Shown in pieces: positions 1,997-51,786 of a stretch of 64,000 nucleotides of DNA (positions are counted from its first letter, which is position 1; each line of letters starts with the position of its first letter). The stretch is from Solirubrobacteraceae bacterium (GTDB lineage Bacteria; Actinomycetota; Thermoleophilia; Solirubrobacterales; Solirubrobacteraceae). Position numbers and translations under genes: made by a program. The stretch is taken from assembly GCA_030447785.1 (NCBI GenBank), contig JAUJOF010000002.1, positions 301,383 through 365,382 of the forward strand, read 5' to 3'. The notes under the pieces were generated by a model that worked only from the letters and a program-made list of their open reading frames with translations, was not told the origin of the DNA and made no database searches.

Positions 1997-2926
1997 GTGC
2001 CGAGCTGGACTGAACTGCTGGGCGAGCTTCAGCGTGCGGGGAGCCCACACGACGTCATTCGCCGACGTTATCTGGCACGACTCGGTGAGGTAACTCGACG
2101 GAACACGATCATCTACTACTCGGGATGGCTCCAGAAGCCGCAGATCTACCAGCAGGCGCCGGAGCCATTCGCAGTCAATGATCAGGACAAGAACGGCTTC
2201 ATGGCAACCATCCACCGGATGGATCGCTCAAAGGGACTAGATCTCCTGCTCCATACGCCAGGCGGAGACGTAGCTGCAGCCGAATCTCTCGTGAATTACC
2301 TGCGAGCGATGTTCGGCACCGATATGCGGGCAATCGTTCCTCAGCTTGCATTGTCGGCGGGCACCATGCTCGCTTGTGCCTGCAATGAGATCGTCATGGG
2401 CCAGCATTCCAGCCTCGGGCCGACCGATCCGCAACTCGGAGGACTGGCCGCCCACGGGGTCGTTGAGGAATTTCGTCAGGCCGCCAAGGAGATACACGAG
2501 GATTCCGCGAGGATCGCGGTTTGGCAGCCCGTCATTGCAAAGTACCACCCGACGCTGATCGGCGAGTGTCAGAAGGCGATCAAATGGACGGATCAGATCG
2601 TTCACAACTGGCTCAAGACCGGCATGTTCGCGGGCATGAACAAACCGGGTCCGGGCGCCCGCGCCGACAGGGTTATGAAGGAGTTGAGCGACCACGCGCT
2701 CACCCTCTCCCATGCGCGCCATATCGACTACGGCCGAGCAAGTGAGATCGGGCTTAAGGTAACCGCCCTAGAAGCCGATAACGACTTTCAGGACGCGGTC
2801 TTGACTGTCCACCATCTGGCTACCCAGACACTCGCTGACACCGGGACAATGAAGCTGATTGAAAATCAGGACGGCGTGGCTTTCGTTCAAACGGCCGCCA
2901 TCCAACAAGCCGTAGCGGTCGCCTAG
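1997..2926 (+). CDS. SDH-family (ClpP/crotonase-fold) serine protease
   Basis: The 309-aa protein resembles the serine dehydrogenase proteinase family (SDH_sah, related to SppA/ClpP). LDLLLHTPGGD at about 81-91 is the substrate-binding loop. ALSAGTMLA at about 118-126 carries the probable nucleophile Ser120. SSLGPTDPQLG at about 138-148 is the family block following the active site. There is no signal peptide or membrane segment, so a cytoplasmic protease is likely. The GTG at 1997 is used because the family N-terminus aligns from there. It is intact, in the cargo of the 815-4556 transposon with a SIR2-fold protein downstream. The role is unknown; defence is inference. Confidence 0.85.
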   Translation: MPSWTELLGELQRAGSPHDVIRRRYLARLGEVTRRNTIIYYSGWLQKPQIYQQAPEPFAVNDQDKNGFMATIHRMDRSKGLDLLLHTPGGDVAAAESLVNYLRAMFGTDMRAIVPQLALSAGTMLACACNEIVMGQHSSLGPTDPQLGGLAAHGVVEEFRQAAKEIHEDSARIAVWQPVIAKYHPTLIGECQKAIKWTDQIVHNWLKTGMFAGMNKPGPGARADRVMKELSDHALTLSHARHIDYGRASEIGLKVTALEADNDFQDAVLTVHHLATQTLADTGTMKLIENQDGVAFVQTAAIQQAVAVA

Positions 2927-3123
2927 GATGATTGCCAGCGTGCTCGCGCGGCTTTCTGGGCTATCTCCGAGCGACGGTCGGGCGACAGCTTCTGGGCGCG
3001 TGCTTTGCCGCCCTTCTTGCCGCCTTCACGGCCAGCCCGCGCGTTGGGACTCTCGGGCTCGGGTCCGGACTCATCGGTCGCCTTCTGGACCAGCTGCGCG
3101 GCGAGCTGGTTGAGATCGGCCAT
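2923..3123 (-). CDS. KGG-type small basic protein (MADLNQLA family)
   Basis: This is a 66-aa protein of a widespread uncharacterised bacterial type: an N-terminal ADLNQLAAQLVQKAT helix, an acidic/proline linker, then a Gly/Lys segment (REGGKKGGKARAQ) and a basic end (SEIAQKAARARW). Such proteins are often annotated as KGG-motif or histone-like; function is unknown. The start was set at MADLNQ by family resemblance, although an ATG three codons upstream at 3132 is possible. It is transcribed against the SDH gene, and the two stop codons overlap (TAG on each strand, 2923-2926). Confidence 0.7.
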   Translation of the reverse strand: MADLNQLAAQLVQKATDESGPEPESPNARAGREGGKKGGKARAQKLSPDRRSEIAQKAARARWQSS

Positions 3124-3206
3124 GAGGCGCATCGTAGCGTGGCCATCGGCCCGCTATAGGCGCAGCGCGAGTACCATTCGGGTCGGACGGGAAACCAAGG
3201 AGCGGG

Positions 3207-4556: not shown

Positions 4557-4796
4557 GGTAGCCGGGGTTCGCACGTCGAACTCTTCGACGGTCAGCAGCG
4601 GCCGAGCGTCGTTGCGGGTGGCGCCGATCTCGGCCGCGCAACACGCGAAAGCCGTCACGTCCGCACCGGTCAACACCCGATCGCCCATTAACCCCGTAGC
4701 GTTCGGTGATTCGACACCATCATCGAGGCGCTCCTTGGATTGGGGAGTAGCGCGGTCGTCGGGATCCGATTGCCAGCACCCGAACTCGTCAGCCAT
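4557..4796 (-). pseudogene. 5' part of an ORF split by the IS1-like transposon
   Basis: If the transposon and one copy of the 8-bp duplication are removed, the minus-strand frame starting ATG at 4796 (MADEFGCWQS...) runs without interruption into 806-729. This gives a 105-aa frame ending ISQARES-stop. I do not recognise the protein. The exact frame continuity supports a once-intact gene, but a 318-bp open frame in GC-rich DNA can occur by chance. In the present sequence the 5' part reads a few codons into the terminal repeat and stops. Confidence 0.35.
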
Positions 4797-5079
4797 GAAC
4801 CCGTCATAGATTCACTTTTGCGCCCGGGGGGGACGGCTTGACGCAGGGAGCGAGCGGCAATCCGCCAGCTTCGAGCACTGTGAGCCACGACTCTTAGGGA
4901 AGGCTTCCGGTCCCGGAGTCGGCGGATCGGCACCCGAGAGCAGACTCCGCTCGCCCTGTTGACGAACGAAGTGCCCGACGGTCTCGGCCGGACTCCGCCG
5001 TCGCCTCACTGTCTCTGCCCCTTGAGAATGTCGCGCTCGCCCGTGGAACTTCGTGACGGCGGTCCGTGAGTGAAGCATC

Positions 5080-5520
5080 TCAAGCGGGGCAAGCGGCGAC
5101 CTCGGGCGCCGCGGTCTTGGTCGTGGTGTGAACGGTGTCGGCGGCGCGCTTGGCGGCGATGTCGCGCTCGACGGCGACGGCCAGCTTGGCCAGGTCGGGA
5201 TGGCCGATGACGCGGCGCAACTGCTGCTCGGCTTCGAGCATCCCGGCGGCCGTCCACTTGAGGCACATGTCGCCGTTCTGCCAGCGCTTGACGTTGCGGG
5301 CCACACGCCGGACAGTTCGATCATCGACTCGCACGGGTTTGTCGAGGAGAGCGTGCGCTTCATCCGGCCGCGGACGCCCAGGAGCGTCTCCTGCATGCCC
5401 TCGCGCAGCGAGGTCGCAGCGCCGGGATGCGAGCGGGCGAGCTCGTCGGCAAGCAGCCGGAGCTGGTCGAGCGCGCGGTCATGGTCATCGGTCGCCCAGG
5501 CGGCGCGCACTCCTGATCGA
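5080..5520 (-). pseudogene. IS256-family (mutator) transposase, C-terminal remnant
   Basis: Only the C-terminal third remains, in two frames. The first carries LRLLADELARSHPGAATSLREGM and RTLSSTNPCESMIE, the conserved IS256 block around the last catalytic Glu. After a frameshift near 5330 the second carries RNVKRWQNGDM, LKWTAAGMLEAE and QLRRVIGHPDL. Asp-containing catalytic segments and both element ends are missing. It lies just beyond the target site of the 815-4556 transposon. The 4797-5079 stretch before it has no recognisable gene. Confidence 0.8.
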
Positions 5521-42281: not shown

Positions 42282-43526
42282 GTGCTGCCCGCCGGAAATT
42301 CTGTCGCGTTGAAGGAGGGGCGGGCTGGTTGACGAACGTTATGGCGTGGGACGGGTGGCCACAGCGATCGAACTCGACGCGGTAGCGCGGGGTGAGCTTG
42401 AGCGGCGGGCGGGGAGCCTGACGCTGCCCTACCGCGTCGTCGTGCGCGCCAAATTGGTGTTGCTGGCCGCTGACGGGCATGGCAACCGTGAGATCGCGCA
42501 GCGGGTCGACATGTCGGCCGACCGGGTCGGGGACTGGCGAAGACGGTTCGCGGCTGAGGGCGTTGATGGGCTTGAGGATCGAGCGCGGACGGGTCGTCCG
42601 CGCCGTTTTCCCCCCGCAAGAGGTCGCGCAGGTCAAGGCGATCGCGTGCGAGTTGCCCAAGGCCCACGGCGTCGCGCTGTCGCGCTTTAGCCGCTCTGAG
42701 ATCCACCGATTCGTCGTCGAGCAGGCCATCAGCCAGGCGTCGGCCTCGACGATCGGGCGCTGGCTGGCCCAGGACGCGATCCGCCCCTGGCAGCATCGGT
42801 CGTGGATCTTTCCGCGCGACCCCGACTTCCTGGAGCGCGCCGGCCCGGTGCTCGACCTCTACGCGGGGCGCTGGGAGGGCAAGCTGCTCGAACCCGGCGA
42901 CTGTGTGATCAGCGCCGACGCCAAGCCCTCGATCCAGGCGCGCCGGCGCATCCACGAGACCGCGCCGCCCGCACCGAGGCGCGCCCAGCGCGTCGAGCAT
43001 GAGTACGAGCGGATGGGCGCGCTGACCTATCTGGACGCCTGGGACGTGCGGCGCGGCGGGGTGATCGGGCGCAGCGAACCCAAGGGCGGCATCGCCGCGT
43101 TCGATCGGCTCGTCTGGCAGGTCATGACCAAGGAGCCCCACGCCAGCGCGCGACGCGTGTTTTGGATCGTCGACAACGGCTCTGACCACCGAGGCAAGGC
43201 GTCCGTCAAGCGCCTCCAGGGCCGCTGGCCAACGCTGATCCTCGTCCATCTCCCCGTCCACGCAAGCTGGCTCAACCAGGTCGAGATCTACCACTCGATC
43301 ATCCAACGCAAGCTGCTGGCCCCCAACGACTTCCACACCACCGCCCAGCTCGCCCACGCACTCAACGACTTCGAGCACCGCTACAACGAGATCGCCGAAC
43401 CCTTCGACTGGACCTTCACCCGCCAGGACCTCGCAGACCTCCTCGCCCGCCTCGACCAGCGAGACCACGAGAGCTCACCGCTCGCGGCGGCCGCCTGATC
43501 ACGACGGCAGTTGCGGCGGCCAGCAC
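42282..43526 (+). mobile_element. IS630-family element at a TA site
   Basis: The ends carry the inverted repeat GTGCTGCCCGCCGGAA / GTGCTGGCCGCCGCAA and are flanked by TA at 42280-42281 and 43527-43528. This is the standard TA duplication of the IS630/Tc1 group. It contains one transposase frame with a single +1 shift. Confidence 0.85.
42346..43498 (+). pseudogene. IS630-family transposase with +1 frameshift in a C-run
   Basis: GTG at 42346 starts GRVATAIELDAVARGELERR with HTH DGHGNREIAQRVDMSADRV and DWRRRFAAEGVDGLEDRARTG. In TTTTCCCCCC at about 42605 the frame must move by one base. The continuation PPQEVAQVKAIACELPKA, GDCVISADAKPSIQAR (Asp), RVFWIVDNGSDHRGK (Asp) and VHASWLNQVEIYHSIIQRK (Glu) is complete to 43498. 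Removing one C restores a normal protein. Sequencing error, inactivating indel or programmed frameshift are all possible. Confidence 0.87.
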
Positions 43527-44085: not shown

Positions 44086-44720
44086 AGGCCGCCGCCTGGC
44101 GGCGGGCCTGTTGCTCGGCCTCGCGCTCGCGCCGGCGGGCCTCCTTGGCCGCCTCCTCATCGCCGGGCTCCTCGCCGGGGTGCTGGCCCTCGCCGGCGCG
44201 CTGCTCGCCGATCCGCTCGCGCCGCTTCTGCTCCTCCTCGGCGCGCTGACGCTGGACGGCCAGGCACGCGCGGATGTAGTCGCCGGCCAGCTGGTCGGCG
44301 ATGTCCTGGCCGACGATCAGCGCGCTGTAGGGCGTGCTTGGAGGCCCGGGCCGCCTTGAGCGCCTGGGCCTGCCCGATCCGCTCGCGGCCAAAGCGCACC
44401 ACGAACTCGTCCGCGGTGACGGGCAGCAGCTCGCACAGCGCCTCGAGGTCGGCACGGGTGGCCTCGTCCAGGCCAAAGCGCGCGATGGGGTGGTTGGCGT
44501 GGGCGTCAAAGACGCCGGCGGGCAGGTCCTCGTCCTGCTCGCCAGGGCCGCTGACGATCACGGCGATCGGGTCGTCGGCCAGCTCCTCCCAGCACTCCCA
44601 GGTGACGGGCTCGTCCCACTGGTGGGCGGGCCCGTCGAGCACGCGCACGGCCACGGCGGGCAGCCCTCGTGCAGGCGCGCCAGCTCGACCAGGGCTTGAT
44701 CGCGCTCTGGGGCACGACGC
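44086..44720 (-). pseudogene. Conjugative-element-like hypothetical protein, truncated and frameshifted
   Basis: One minus-strand frame reads LPAVAVRVLDGPAHQWDEPV, TWECWEELADDPIAVIVSGP, AHANHPIARFGLDEATRADL and LCELLPVTADEFVVRFGRER. A second continues LIVGQDIADQLAGDYIRACL and a long charged helix (RAEEEQKRRERIGEQRAGE). This is a plausible partition or coupling-type protein of an integrated element, but the family is not certain. Its 3' end is fused tail to tail with the 43600 fragment, which implies a deletion. Confidence 0.5.
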
Positions 44721-45272: not shown

Positions 45273-45339
45273 TCCTGAGTCGTCCGGGGCAGGGCAAGTA
45301 TCCCTTGACAGTACGTAGTTTTTTTGGGATCATGCAGGT

Positions 45340-46281
45340 GTGCCTCCCGTCGATCGCAACAACCCGCAGCGCGCCGACTCGTCGGACTCGCGCATGTCGA
45401 TCATGGAGTTCATGCGGGAGTTCCCCGACGATGCCGCGTGCCTGCGGTGGCTGTGGCGCGAGCGGTGCTCAGAAGACGGCGAGCACGCCCACTGCCCCAA
45501 GTGCGAACGCACCCGCAAGTTCCACAAGCTGACCGAGCACCCCGCCTGGTCGTGCGACACCTGCGGCCACCACCTGCACCCCACGGCGGGGACGATCTTC
45601 CACAAGTCGTCCACGTCGCTCCAGCTGTGGTTCTACGCCATGTACCTCATGGCCAGCACTCGCTGCGGAGTCTCGGCCAAGCACCTAGAGCGCGAGCTTG
45701 GCGTGACGTACAAGACCGCATGGCGCATGGCCAACCTCATCCGCAACCAGCTCATGACCCAAGACGGCGACGAGCCGCTGTCCGGCGACGTGGAGGTAGA
45801 CGAGACTGCGGGTGGCGGAAAGACCCGCGCGTCAGACCGGCGCAAGGGCCGTCAGCACGTGATCGCCAAGATGAGCAGGCGCCCGACGATCTGGGGCGCC
45901 GTCGAGCGCGGCGGACGCATTCGCGTTGAGGTCGTGCGCTCGCGTGGGACCGTCGATGTTGAGGGGGCGCTGTTTGAGTACGTGCTGCCCACGTCGATGA
46001 TCTTCACGGATGAGTGGCTTGGCTACACGGAGCGGGTCGGGAGCAGGTATATCGGCCATCGCCGCATCCGCCATGAGGATCGCGTCTACGTCAGCGGGTC
46101 GGTGCATACGCAGACCATCGAGGGGTTCTTCGGCAACCTCAAGAACGGCATCCGGGGCAACTACCACTCCGTGTCGAGCAAGTGGCTTCAGGGCTACCTG
46201 AACGAGTACGCGTGGCGCTACAACCGCCGGGTCGAGCCCAAGCGGATGTTCTCGGACCTACTGCTGCGTGCGGCTTCGTAG
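45340..46281 (+). CDS. IS1595-family (ISXO2-like) transposase
   Basis: The 313-aa protein has an N-terminal zinc ribbon (HCPKCERTRKFHKL with Cys52/55, CDTCGHHLHPTAGT with Cys72/75). Then come STSLQLWFYAMYLMASTR, GVSAKHLERELGVTYKTAWR (HTH) and the DDE-type core: SGDVEVDETAGGGK, TSMIFTDEWLGYTERV and TIEGFFGNLKNGIRGNYH. Such transposases belong to the ISXO2/IS1595 group. GTG at 45340 is the start. Intact. Confidence 0.92.
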   Translation: MPPVDRNNPQRADSSDSRMSIMEFMREFPDDAACLRWLWRERCSEDGEHAHCPKCERTRKFHKLTEHPAWSCDTCGHHLHPTAGTIFHKSSTSLQLWFYAMYLMASTRCGVSAKHLERELGVTYKTAWRMANLIRNQLMTQDGDEPLSGDVEVDETAGGGKTRASDRRKGRQHVIAKMSRRPTIWGAVERGGRIRVEVVRSRGTVDVEGALFEYVLPTSMIFTDEWLGYTERVGSRYIGHRRIRHEDRVYVSGSVHTQTIEGFFGNLKNGIRGNYHSVSSKWLQGYLNEYAWRYNRRVEPKRMFSDLLLRAAS

Positions 46282-46308
46282 TCGCCCGCCGCCCCTTGCG
46301 GCTTCGGA

Positions 46309-46548
46309 TTATCCGCCTTTGCGTTTGAGGACTTCATGGAACTCTACCTCCGTCTTCCCGCACTGCCGCAATAGCTCCTTGAAAAAGCCATGGTCGGCTA
46401 TCTCCGCGTTGCCATGTGAAGCGCGCGTTTGCCTAATCACAGCGCCTGCCGTGTCGTACTTGATCCAGGTCTCGTGCTTTCGGGAACGAACCAGCTCAAA
46501 TCCGTTCCGCACGATAACCTTGCGATAGTCATTCCAGCGGGGAGGCAT
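46309..46548 (-). CDS. hicA: HicA-like toxin
   Basis: The 79-aa protein reads PRWNDYRKVIVRNGFELVRS, RKHETWIKYDTAGAVIRQ and then SHGNAEIADHGFFKEL. It has the double-stranded-RNA-binding-like HicA fold pattern: G-F-x-x-x-R-x-x-x-HxxW, a basic strand, and a final helix. The usual catalytic His corresponds to KHETW. HicA toxins cleave mRNA. It overlaps the upstream HicB-like gene by 20 bp. ATG at 46548. Confidence 0.75.
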   Translation of the reverse strand: MPPRWNDYRKVIVRNGFELVRSRKHETWIKYDTAGAVIRQTRASHGNAEIADHGFFKELLRQCGKTEVEFHEVLKRKGG

Positions 46549-46954
46549 CCGTAGGCGTAGGGGCGTCCACGCTCGCCCACCACACGACCCGTGGGGCATC
46601 CAGTAGCGGGATGTACATCGCATGGTGAGCGACTGCGAGCGCGAGCCGCGGTGCATCCTCACGCAGAAACTCCAAGTACTGCTCAACTGAGTCGCCAAGA
46701 TCCTCCAAGGCGTCCTGCTGGAATGCTCCATAGCCGAGTGCGTTCAAGGCAGGGGCTATCGCGATCCACCCCCCCTCGCTAGGGCGCACGATGACCGACA
46801 GCCGCGCTGGTTCGACGCGAACCGAATATGAATTCGCACCGGCCGCGGACCGCGGATAGCGAATGCCCACAGAGACTTCGTCTCCCTCGGAGTGAGCGAT
46901 CTTCAACCCCGCGTCATCGGTAATTCCGCCAGCGACAAGAGTAGACGGGCTCAT
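46529..46954 (-). CDS. hicB: HicB-like antitoxin
   Basis: The 141-aa protein contains RLSVIVRPSEGGWIAIAPAL, NALGYGAFQQDALEDLGDSV and EQYLEFLREDAP. This resembles the partial RNase-H fold of HicB antitoxins (E-G-G-W-x-A-x-x-P, then an A-x-x-x-L helix). A C-terminal extension follows without a clear HTH. It lies immediately upstream of hicA and starts inside the DUF3467 stop (ATGA, 46951-46954). Antitoxin function is inferred from fold and position. Confidence 0.65.
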   Translation of the reverse strand: MSPSTLVAGGITDDAGLKIAHSEGDEVSVGIRYPRSAAGANSYSVRVEPARLSVIVRPSEGGWIAIAPALNALGYGAFQQDALEDLGDSVEQYLEFLREDAPRLALAVAHHAMYIPLLDAPRVVWWASVDAPTPTDASPLE

Positions 46955-47244
46955 GATTCCTCCTCAGGGGGCGGCGCCTGCTCGTCCGCGAGGCGCTGCA
47001 ACTCCTCGTGCTTGGCTAGATGACCACTGAGCACCTGCATCAGCGGCATCAGGAACGTTGGCGACAGCTTGAGCCGGGCAACCACGATGGGGCGTGGTGC
47101 GGGCGATCCCGGCACCATCTGTATGAAGTCCAATGTCACGTCGTGCGGCGACTGGCTCGATACGGCCGCAAAGTTGGCGTAGACGCCCGTATCGTGCTCG
47201 GGCGGCACGACAACCTCGACGGATGTGGGCTCATCGGTGGCCAT
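46951..47244 (-). CDS. DUF3467 protein
   Basis: The 97-aa protein reads GVYANFAAVSSQSPHDVTLD, FIQMVPGSP, VVARLKLSPTFLMPLMQVL and a C-terminal helix, the DUF3467 pattern (Y-x-N, DF, AR-x-x-x-SP). Its stop overlaps the hicB start (ATGA), so it heads a three-gene translationally coupled operon with hicB and hicA. The function of DUF3467 is unknown. Confidence 0.75.
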   Translation of the reverse strand: MATDEPTSVEVVVPPEHDTGVYANFAAVSSQSPHDVTLDFIQMVPGSPAPRPIVVARLKLSPTFLMPLMQVLSGHLAKHEELQRLADEQAPPPEEES

Positions 47245-47379
47245 GGGCAGTAGTCCATCGCCAGCCGCCCAGTCGCAGTTGAGCGGCGACCCGCGATCAC
47301 GGCCGACGATACCAGCACCCCGGTAACGGCGTTCCCGTTCCCGGACGAGTAGGCGTCAAGCCGGATCTCCCGGCTGCAC

Positions 47380-47562
47380 CTACTGCTTCGGGCCGCTGTC
47401 GTCCGTAGCTGAGCGCTTGCCCGTCACGCTGCGCATGAGGTCGAAGACTTCCTTGCGCGTCGGGATGGGGATGTCGGCGGGCTTGTAGCGCCGGCCCTGC
47501 TTGTCCTTGCCCTGCGGGCGGGTCTTCTGCGTAGGCTCGGGGGTGTGAGACTCGTCGGACAC
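47380..47562 (-). CDS. Small basic hypothetical protein
   Basis: 60 aa, MSDESHTPEPTQKTRPQGKD followed by KQGRRYKPADIPIPTRKEVF. Hydrophilic, Lys/Arg rich, without recognised domain. It lies upstream of and on the same strand as the DUF3467-HicB-HicA operon (135-bp gap), and divergent from the HNH-type gene with 26 bp between starts. Confidence 0.5.
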   Translation of the reverse strand: MSDESHTPEPTQKTRPQGKDKQGRRYKPADIPIPTRKEVFDLMRSVTGKRSATDDSGPKQ

Positions 47563-47588
47563 GCCTAAGGGATCGTAGCGGTCGCGTC

Positions 47589-48332
47589 ATGGCATGCATC
47601 TTCTGCGGAAGCAGCGGCCCCATCGACAAGGAGCACCTGCTCAATAGATGGCTGCGAACGTACCTCCACGACGAGCAGGCTGGGCGTCCGGGAGCGCAAA
47701 TCACTGGCGGTCAGAACAAGCCCCTGACACGGAAGATCCACACATACCCGCTGAAGGGTTGGCGTCGCGTTGTATGCAAGGACTGCAACAGCGGATGGAT
47801 GGGGCGACTAGAGGGCACCGAAACAGGGGTGCGGCCGTTCCTCGAACCACTGGTGCAAGGCAAACCGGTCGTGCTTTCGGTCCAAGACCAAGAGCTGTTT
47901 ATGCGCTGGATCGTGAAGCTGGCGATCGTCTGGGAGTACCTGGACACCGACACGATCACGACGACGCCGGCTCTACGCAGGCGCTTCATGGAGACGCAGC
48001 TTCCGCCTCTAGCTACCCAGATCCGTGTCGGCAGCTTCGACATCTACTCGGCCAGCACGCCGATGTTGTACTGGCATGAGGCCCACGTCATGCAAGGCGA
48101 GCACATTGGCTCGTCCGATGCGCTGCAAGCGCAATGGACGTCCATCACCATCGCGCACATCGCGATCCACATATTCATGGGCACTTGGGAAGAGCAGGTC
48201 ACCGTTGGCCTCCCCGACCACATCGCCCCGAAGTACCGGCAGATCTGGCCCGTCCTTGGTGCCCAATCCTTCCCGGCCGCTCCCCTGATCACCCAGCTCG
48301 ACATCGCGCGGATGATGCACCCGGTCGACTAG
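47589..48332 (+). CDS. HNH-endonuclease-type protein
   Basis: The 247-aa protein starts MACIFCGSSGPIDKEHLLNR (Cys-x-x-Cys with a nearby EH pair). At about 61-72 it has VVCKDCNSGWMG, the second zinc knuckle typical of HNH nucleases (C-x-x-C-N-x-G). The rest is an all-alpha-looking region with ELFMRWIVKLAIVWEYLD and AHIAIHIFMGTWEEQ and has no recognised fold. Probably a DNA nuclease or a nuclease-fold protein. It is cargo of the IS1595 transposon. Intact. Confidence 0.68.
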   Translation: MACIFCGSSGPIDKEHLLNRWLRTYLHDEQAGRPGAQITGGQNKPLTRKIHTYPLKGWRRVVCKDCNSGWMGRLEGTETGVRPFLEPLVQGKPVVLSVQDQELFMRWIVKLAIVWEYLDTDTITTTPALRRRFMETQLPPLATQIRVGSFDIYSASTPMLYWHEAHVMQGEHIGSSDALQAQWTSITIAHIAIHIFMGTWEEQVTVGLPDHIAPKYRQIWPVLGAQSFPAAPLITQLDIARMMHPVD

Positions 48333-48432
48333 AGGCTGGCCGTCGATCTCCTCGTCCTGCTCGCCATGCGAGCACATGTTCGCTCCGTTCTTACGTACGG
48401 TAAAGGGATACTTGCCCGGGGCAGTTGCGAAC

Positions 48433-49167
48433 GTGCGTTCGAATGACTCACCCTCGGAGACCGTCGAGCAAGCACTCATCCTCGAGGGTGAGGGACGCAC
48501 GGCGACGGAGATCGCGCGGCTCTTGGGGGTGCCCCGGAGGACCGTCGCTGACTGGCTCGCCGGGCGTGCACCGAAGCTGGCGCCGACTGACTTCGGGGCT
48601 CGGGCCGTTCCTGCCGAAGCCGAGGCGGCCTACGTCCACTTGCTCGGCCTCTACCTCGGCGACGGGTGTCTCTCGGCCCATCCGAGGAGCGTCTACAAGC
48701 TGAGGATCACCCTTGATGCCGTCTATCCCGGCATCATCGACGAATGCGTCGTGTCGATGCGCGCGGTCGTTGGCACTCGCGTGCGTTGCCGACCGCGTCG
48801 ATACGGCGACGTCGAGGTCTACGCGTACTCGAAGCGCTGGCCTTACCTCTTTCCTCAGCACGGACCGGGGATGAAGCACCTTCGTCCCATCGCTCTGCAC
48901 CAGTGGCAGGAGGTTCTGGTAGATCGTCACCCCGAGCGACTGCTGCGCGGCCTCATCCAGTCGGATGGGTGCCGCTTCATCAACACTGGCCGCAACTGGC
49001 TGTGCCCGCGCTACTCGTTCAGCAACCGCTCAGCAGACATCCGCGGCATCTTCTGCGATGCATGCGACGTCCTCGGCGTGCGCTGGACAACAGCGCCCCA
49101 CACCGTCTACGTGTCTCGCAAGGCCGACGTCGCACGCCTCGACGAATTCATCGGTCCCAAGCGTTAA
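48433..49167 (+). CDS. HTH-LAGLIDADG homing-endonuclease-like protein
   Basis: The 244-aa protein has an N-terminal HTH (TATEIARLLGVPRRTVADWL) followed by two LAGLIDADG-like motifs: HLLGLYLGDGCLS at about 70-82 and LLRGLIQSDGCRF at about 170-182. It also has YSFSNRSADIRGIFCDACDV. This fits a monomeric two-motif homing-endonuclease fold. GTG at 48433 is the start; longer frames run into the transposon. Without the IS1595 element it would begin 28 bp after tRNA-Leu(CAG). A paralogue at 51016-51786 lies next to tRNA-Trp. Confidence 0.78.
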   Translation: MRSNDSPSETVEQALILEGEGRTATEIARLLGVPRRTVADWLAGRAPKLAPTDFGARAVPAEAEAAYVHLLGLYLGDGCLSAHPRSVYKLRITLDAVYPGIIDECVVSMRAVVGTRVRCRPRRYGDVEVYAYSKRWPYLFPQHGPGMKHLRPIALHQWQEVLVDRHPERLLRGLIQSDGCRFINTGRNWLCPRYSFSNRSADIRGIFCDACDVLGVRWTTAPHTVYVSRKADVARLDEFIGPKR

Positions 49168-51015: not shown

Positions 51016-51786
51016 TCATCGCTTGGGACCGACGTGCTCATCGAGGAGGGCCACGGCGTCCCGCCGCGCGATCGAGATGTGCCAGCGACCCCATGGCCGC
51101 CAAGCGACGCCGAGATGGTCGCAGGCGTCGGTGAAAATCTTGCGGATGTCGTCGGACCGGTTCGAGAACTGGTAGCGCGGATAGACGTAGTCCCTGCCCT
51201 TGACGTGCACCCGGTTCACGCCGCGCCATCCATCAGAGTGGATCAGGCCACGCAGGAAGTGCCCGGTGTGCTCGTCCACGATGCGCTGCTGCCAAGCGAC
51301 GAGCGTGATGCGCCGCTTGTGTTTGCGGCCCGGTCCGTGCTGAGGGAACAGGCACTCCCAATGGCGGTTGTAGGCGCTCAACACGATGCACGCCTGTTCA
51401 GGTCGTTTGTAGAGGCTCGAGCGTTGGCCCGGGATGACCTCGCCGATCGCCCGGCACGCCTCGGTGATGAGTGACGGATAGGCCGCATCGAAACCGACGC
51501 GCAGACAGACGCTCGAACCTTGATGACTCAGGCATCCATCACCGAGGTAGAGGCCAAGGACGTATGCGTAGTCCACCGCTGACGCCAATCTCGGGCCACC
51601 CCCGCCGCAGTTGCGACACCCACGATCGGGAGGCGGGCGCTGTGGTACCTCGCCGCGTGCCCAGCGCGCCACCGTTCCCTGGCTCACTCCAGTGCGGCGA
51701 GCGACCTCGTGCGTGCTGAGGCCGGAGCGGCACAGCCGCAGGATGTTCGCCACGACCTCCTCGGAGAAGACTCGACCCCTCGCCAC
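51016..51786 (-). CDS. HTH-LAGLIDADG homing-endonuclease-like protein
   Basis: The 256-aa protein has HTH LSTHEVARRTGVSQGTVARW, a zinc-knuckle-like CRNCGGGG, and two LAGLIDADG-like motifs: YVLGLYLGDGCLS at about 80-92 and FLRGLIHSDGWRG at about 177-189. YQFSNRSDDIRKIFTDACDH and a C-terminal EHVGPKR, nearly the same as its paralogue's FIGPKR, follow. ATG at 51786 lies 64 bp from the 5' end of tRNA-Trp, divergently oriented. It is the paralogue of the 48433-49167 gene. Intact. Confidence 0.78.
   Translation of the reverse strand: MARGRVFSEEVVANILRLCRSGLSTHEVARRTGVSQGTVARWARGEVPQRPPPDRGCRNCGGGGPRLASAVDYAYVLGLYLGDGCLSHQGSSVCLRVGFDAAYPSLITEACRAIGEVIPGQRSSLYKRPEQACIVLSAYNRHWECLFPQHGPGRKHKRRITLVAWQQRIVDEHTGHFLRGLIHSDGWRGVNRVHVKGRDYVYPRYQFSNRSDDIRKIFTDACDHLGVAWRPWGRWHISIARRDAVALLDEHVGPKR

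Follow-up and report, generated by a model that had tools for sequence, protein, structure and literature searches.

The window analysed here, a stretch of 64,000 nucleotides from a Solirubrobacteraceae bacterium, contains an IS1595-family element spanning exactly 45293-48416 (3124 bp), which is probably best explained as an insertion sequence with passenger genes ("transporter IS"), including hicB-hicA, with the gene encoding a DUF3467 protein as a passenger. Insertion sequences with passenger genes are already known; here, a predicted toxin-antitoxin pair is part of the cargo of an IS1595 element (Table 1).

Table 1. Features of the IS1595-family element and its target duplication (positions in the window).
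Feature	Position	Strand	Evidence or remark
Target duplication CGGGGCAG, left copy	45285..45292		Identical to 48417-48424
Left TIR GGCAAGTATCCCTTGACAGTACGTA	45293..45317	+	Contains TTGACA -35-like box
IS1595-family transposase, 313 aa, intact	45340..46281	+	NF033547 and PF12762
hicA, predicted toxin, 79 aa, KHETW subtype	46309..46548	-	PF07927, 19.5 bits; relatives
hicB, predicted antitoxin, 141 aa, HicB core and C-terminal AHHxxYI extension	46529..46954	-	Relatives and fold
DUF3467 protein, 97 aa	46951..47244	-	PF11950, 38.7 bits (cutoff 25); ATGA overlap with hicB
Small 60-aa protein, undescribed family (EPxQ-T...IPIPxRxxF...VA)	47380..47562	-	Homologues in further IS1595 elements
Divergent cargo gene, 247 aa, HNH-like N-terminal half (CxxC...EH...VCKDCNSGW)	47589..48332	+	phrog_38451
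Right TIR	48392..48416	-	TTTACC where left TIR has TTGACA
Target duplication CGGGGCAG, right copy	48417..48424		Identical to 45285..45292

Transposase, Element Ends and Insertion Site

The initial annotation had placed the element in the IS1595 family, and this is borne out by an intact IS1595/ISXO2-like DDE transposase, terminal inverted repeats (TIRs) and a target duplication. The transposase scores 173 bits against the NCBIfam IS1595 model (NF033547; cutoff 75) and 103 bits against Pfam DDE_Tnp_IS1595 (PF12762), with the whole domain covered, and is 49-58% identical to seven relatives.

Regarding the ends, the inverted repeat described previously holds as a 26-nt match between 45292-45317 and 48392-48417 with 92% complementarity (24 of 26), and the element drawn at 45292-48417 is real, but each of its ends is off by one base and the 6-bp flank GGGGCA is not the target duplication. 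Once each end is shifted by one base, the 25-bp TIRs begin GGCAAGTATCCCTT, with a GGC start (opening GGCAAGTAT), and the flanks hold the perfect 8-bp duplication CGGGGCAG, which rules out GGGGCA. The TIR core GGCAAGTATCCCTTKAC was found just twice in the 64-kb window (chance mean 0.01), and two matches were obtained in none of 100 shuffles. The G+C content is 63% in the element and 70% in its flanks.

In a genome of the same genus, tRNA-Glu, tRNA-Leu and the right-hand gene adjoin one another and the element is missing; this orthologous empty site provides direct evidence for insertion. The joined flanks aligned well across the tRNAs and the gene to the right, but a short stretch at the junction shows no base-by-base conservation. 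The element is a real transposon, inserted downstream of tRNA-Leu, and we infer that it has itself transposed. It is single-copy in its own genome, so that copy number gives no sign of recent activity, and the only other DNA match to it there is a distant transposase stretch. On contig C17 of this genome (G000; L072, 3596-5418), two distant IS1595-like transposase frames lie close together in opposite orientation.

Sister Elements and Their Cargo

Searches with the transposase DNA revealed copies in the same family, while protein searches added four more genomes and two plasmids. Each of the 12 complete related IS1595 elements (L065, L066, L067, L069, L070, L071, L129, L130, L131, L132, L133, and L134), 10 of them actinobacterial and two on proteobacterial plasmids, carries cargo and is flanked by a perfect 8-bp duplication, although the scan scored TIR and duplication jointly and some selection is therefore built in. 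A perfect 8-bp repeat and a long TIR around a transposase in every complete case are not expected by chance. The transposases of L065, L066, L067, and L069 are approximately 55% identical to that of the window and their TIRs start with CACA, not GG; both types give 8-bp duplications.

GG-type TIRs are present in seven elements (the window, L071, L129, L130, L132, L133, and L134), all seven of which have a TTGAC box at the transposase end that is absent from the other end. This asymmetric box fits a transposase promoter. The window element has a promoter-like site at the left TIR (45305-45333). The transposase would probably be transcribed from the TTGACA box within the left TIR and would recognise both TIRs, the insertion downstream of tRNA-Leu having duplicated 8 bp.

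Cargo resembling toxin-antitoxin systems was detected in three of the 13 elements: HicBA in the window, a Gp49/HigB-like and helix-turn-helix (HTH) combination in L134, and a VapD-like gene in L130. The HigB/Gp49-like toxin gene and HTH gene (L134, 4321-4990) lie inside an AT-rich IS1595 element, and the VapD-like gene (L130, 4539-5060; 33 bits, below cutoff) is in an IS1595 element on a Geminicoccaceae plasmid. HicA, HicB and DUF3467 were absent from all 12 sister elements examined. A recurrent cargo protein of about 280 aa with SALDHLAW and DKHR motifs is encoded in L065, L066, L067, L069, L131, L132, and L133, and had no Pfam or NCBIfam match. Its assignment as a HEPN ribonuclease was considered and is not claimed, the R-x4-H motif being present in six of the seven proteins, lost in L067, and accompanied by no family match.

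The Small 60-aa Gene and the Divergent Cargo Gene

The small gene in the cargo, already recognised in the initial annotation, belongs to an undescribed family of 45-61 aa proteins with the motif EPxQ-T-KG-IPIPxRxxF, and its product had no match in Pfam, NCBIfam, PADLOC or PHROG. The first homologues were found beside transposases in L065 and L067, and then in L066 and L069; the family further includes L114/L133, L115/L132, L131, which adds a further copy, L112/L135, and L113. In a search of 101 genomes of the bacterial family, five matches were strong and each fell within a duplication-bounded element; a further two were weak, both in G372 and neither with an IS1595 transposase in view: L112/L135, a convincing family member near a contig end, and L113, a likely remnant (EPKRTTPAGVRIPVLSREDF within a longer frame). 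Strong matches occurred in five of the eight family genomes with a related transposase and in none of the 93 without (Fisher p=7e-7, 101 genomes), an association biased by a profile seeded from such elements and by the relatedness of the genomes. Less biased is a search of 296 genomes of the phylum that was blind to transposases and returned two more members, L114 and L115, each immediately adjacent to an IS1595 transposase.

Eight of the 11 actinobacterial elements in the comparison have the small gene, the exceptions being L070, L071, and L134, and neither plasmid element does. The gene is mostly divergent from a cargo gene, with starts about 20-30 bp apart. We tentatively regard it, with confidence somewhat short of an even balance, as a hallmark accessory gene of a mainly actinobacterial IS1595 lineage, usually with the 3' end of the transposase gene on one side and a divergent, exchangeable cargo gene on the other, and serving the transposon, not a single cargo; in the window, HicBA would have been added to this design. 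In the preferred interpretation of the element, the small gene and a divergent cargo gene make up the part of the design in common with the sister elements, and the DUF3467-hicB-hicA block, which lies between the small gene and the end of the transposase gene, is an addition. All seven elements encoding the recurrent protein of about 280 aa also have the small gene, which could therefore also have a role connected with that protein; in L066 and L069 the two genes are not adjacent.

Regarding the divergent gene of the window element, its presence in the cargo agrees with the initial annotation. The first half of its product resembles phrog_38451 (E=4e-12), a PHROG family of unknown function, and residues 2-117 have weak similarity (34% identity) to a Gordonia phage protein that a single record annotates as an HNH endonuclease. 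The motifs CxxC, EH and CxxCN can be recognised, but searches of Pfam and PDB gave no match to support the HNH assignment, for which the evidence is weak; the product is to be treated as HNH-like.

The hicB-hicA Pair

The string of overlapping minus-strand genes encoding DUF3467, HicB and HicA inside the element, including the ATGA overlap between the DUF3467 gene and hicB, was confirmed. The start of hicA at 46548 overlaps the end of hicB by 20 nt, and hicB has its own ribosome-binding site (GAGGAGG); a longer, mechanically called hicA open reading frame from 46731 is misleading. Both proteins were identified through relatives, since HicA alone scores 19.5 bits against PF07927, below the cutoff of 27, and HicB had no Pfam match. 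Searching the phylum with HicA yielded a single relative (L043, Candidatus Subteraquimicrobium, Actinomycetota), 46% identical in the alignment and passing the Pfam cutoff, and this relative seeded a productive genome scan with a two-row HicA alignment (window and relative; KHETW-type HicA motif), which detected 29 related hicA loci in many phyla. A hicB-like gene lies directly upstream of hicA in 28 of these 29 loci, mostly overlapping it. The window HicA is 33-44% identical to 23 HicA relatives, with RS-KHETW and H45 invariant, and in an alignment of 22 relatives the window HicB retains the core along with the AHHxxYI portion of a C-terminal extension found across the group.

Structural comparison points in the same direction. 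Residues 51-100 of the HicB model have a pLDDT of about 90, and its best PDB fold matches are the HicB proteins 6u0i, 4p78 and 6g26 and the antitoxin 3k6q, with probabilities of 0.94-1.00, yet Foldseek E-values of at least 0.02. Profile searches of the PDB matched HicB to 3k6q (E=5.5e-14) and weakly to 2yzt, and HicA to 1whz (E=7e-4). The homology of HicA and HicB is thus supported by relatives, by the conserved gene pair and by the predicted fold. Scans of viral contigs with the single HicA, DUF3467 and HicB proteins and with the two-row HicA alignment gave no matches, nor did tblastn of the three proteins, or of the L043 HicA, against plasmids.

The HicA toxins of the HicAB family are small, His-dependent proteins that cleave mRNA; HicB binds and masks the toxin, and because the antitoxin is the shorter-lived partner, losing the pair is costly. 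By analogy, the passengers here would include hicB-hicA, in that order, as a type II toxin-antitoxin pair, with HicA acting as the toxin and HicB as the antitoxin; loss of the element would then be costly, and stabilisation of the element by the predicted pair is plausible. Autoregulation by HicB is uncertain because no DNA-binding domain is evident in the window protein.

DUF3467 and Alternative Explanations

The initial annotation had suggested a three-component HicAB variant, in which DUF3467 would be an operon regulator or co-antitoxin replacing the DNA-binding domain missing from HicB. The ATGA overlap with hicB on the same strand favours such a reading, as does the lack of a recognisable DNA-binding domain in the window HicB when the L043 relative has a Phd domain (PF12910/PF02604) and the HicB of L091 has an N-terminal region that is ParD-like by eye; most relatives' HicB proteins, however, also lack such a domain, and lack DUF3467 as well. 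None of the 29 related hicA operons contains DUF3467 or the triplet. A PF11950 search of 296 genomes of the phylum gave 54 matches in 50 genomes, and a HicA search of those 50 genomes found HicA near only one of them, the window itself, leaving 53 of 54 not near HicA, with the caveat that the profile may miss divergent HicA and that several DUF3467 copies are near contig ends. The initial annotation had itself stated that scarcity of DUF3467 beside hicB elsewhere would refute this variant, and these counts agree with that outcome. The DUF3467 protein, aligned with 15 other DUF3467 proteins, yielded a low-confidence model without a credible fold match, and we consider a three-component system improbable; the tempting claim of a conserved DUF3467-HicB-HicA system is thus removed as unsupported. 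We favour reading DUF3467 as a local passenger, translationally coupled to hicB and probably acquired in this lineage, not as a defining third component. A HicB-like or DNA-binding fold for DUF3467 was also sought, with no credible match from a weak model (mean pLDDT 67) that excludes nothing, and sequence searches of the PDB gave no match. The one DUF3467 detected on a viral contig had no adjoining HicA. In a Nitrospirota locus (L100), DUF3467 (2789-3133) lies about 1.5 kb from a hicB-hicA pair (4661-5213) on the opposite strand.

Toxin-antitoxin pairs carried by chromosomal transposons may be inert, and the hicBA block could be a decayed or inert passenger of an element that persists through transposition alone, a reading compatible with the other cargo in most relatives, the divergence of HicA and the single copy of the element. 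The open frames, the overlapping gene order and the KHETW/H45 residues are all kept, though, and make decay or inertness rather unlikely. The block could also act in phage defence and not in stability, given the HNH-like gene next to the predicted toxin-antitoxin pair and the varied cargo in sister copies of this mobile element, but no gene of the element had a PADLOC match and no defence context was found, and there is little reason to favour this proposal. The interpretation as a transporter IS with a hicB-hicA pair and DUF3467 among its passengers accordingly remains the preferred one.

Relation to Known Systems

Insertion sequence copies with passenger genes are called transporter ISs in PMC3129680, where the IS1595 paper (Siguier, Gagnevin, Chandler 2009) is cited. 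IS1595 elements with passenger genes resemble the window element in the IS1595 transposase, the TIRs, the 8-bp duplication and passengers unrelated to transposition, whereas the cargo of the window differs by the HicBA-type pair and the recurrent undescribed 60-aa gene. No report of either in IS1595 elements was found in the open-licence literature searched, which is weak evidence of novelty.

The closest case is that of toxin-antitoxin pairs in Tn3-family transposons (PMC7157771, the main text of which has no mention of HicA or IS1595). They share a type II toxin-antitoxin pair inside a transposon, predicted as such in the window, whereas the window transposase is unrelated (IS1595), no resolvase or res site was seen in the element, and toxin-antitoxin cargo is limited to the three of 13 IS1595 elements compared. 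The comparison shows that IS1595-type elements, barely above insertion-sequence size, can have toxin-antitoxin modules, here predicted ones, among their cargo in the manner of Tn3 transposons; it also exposes an undescribed small-gene family linked to the IS1595-type elements. With HicAB type II systems (antitoxin SWOL_0700, PDB 3k6q; HicA-like 1whz), the pair shares the HicA core with conserved His, the HicB core fold and the overlapping gene pair, but differs in the order hicB-hicA, the KHETW motif, the C-terminal AHHxxYI antitoxin extension and DUF3467 ahead of the pair.

Neighbouring Features

An exact 18-bp direct repeat, TCCTCGTCCTGCTCGCCA, is present at 44527-44544, outside the element on the left, and at 48349-48366, inside it near the right end. 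Upstream of the element, overlapping open reading frames in different frames (42346-43498) resemble a frameshifted IS630-type transposase. The proteins encoded at 48376-49167 and 51016-51786 look alike, each having an HTH at the N-terminus and matching LAGLIDADG weakly. Both are encoded near tRNA genes, and the former also adjoins tRNA-Leu in a same-genus genome (L148).
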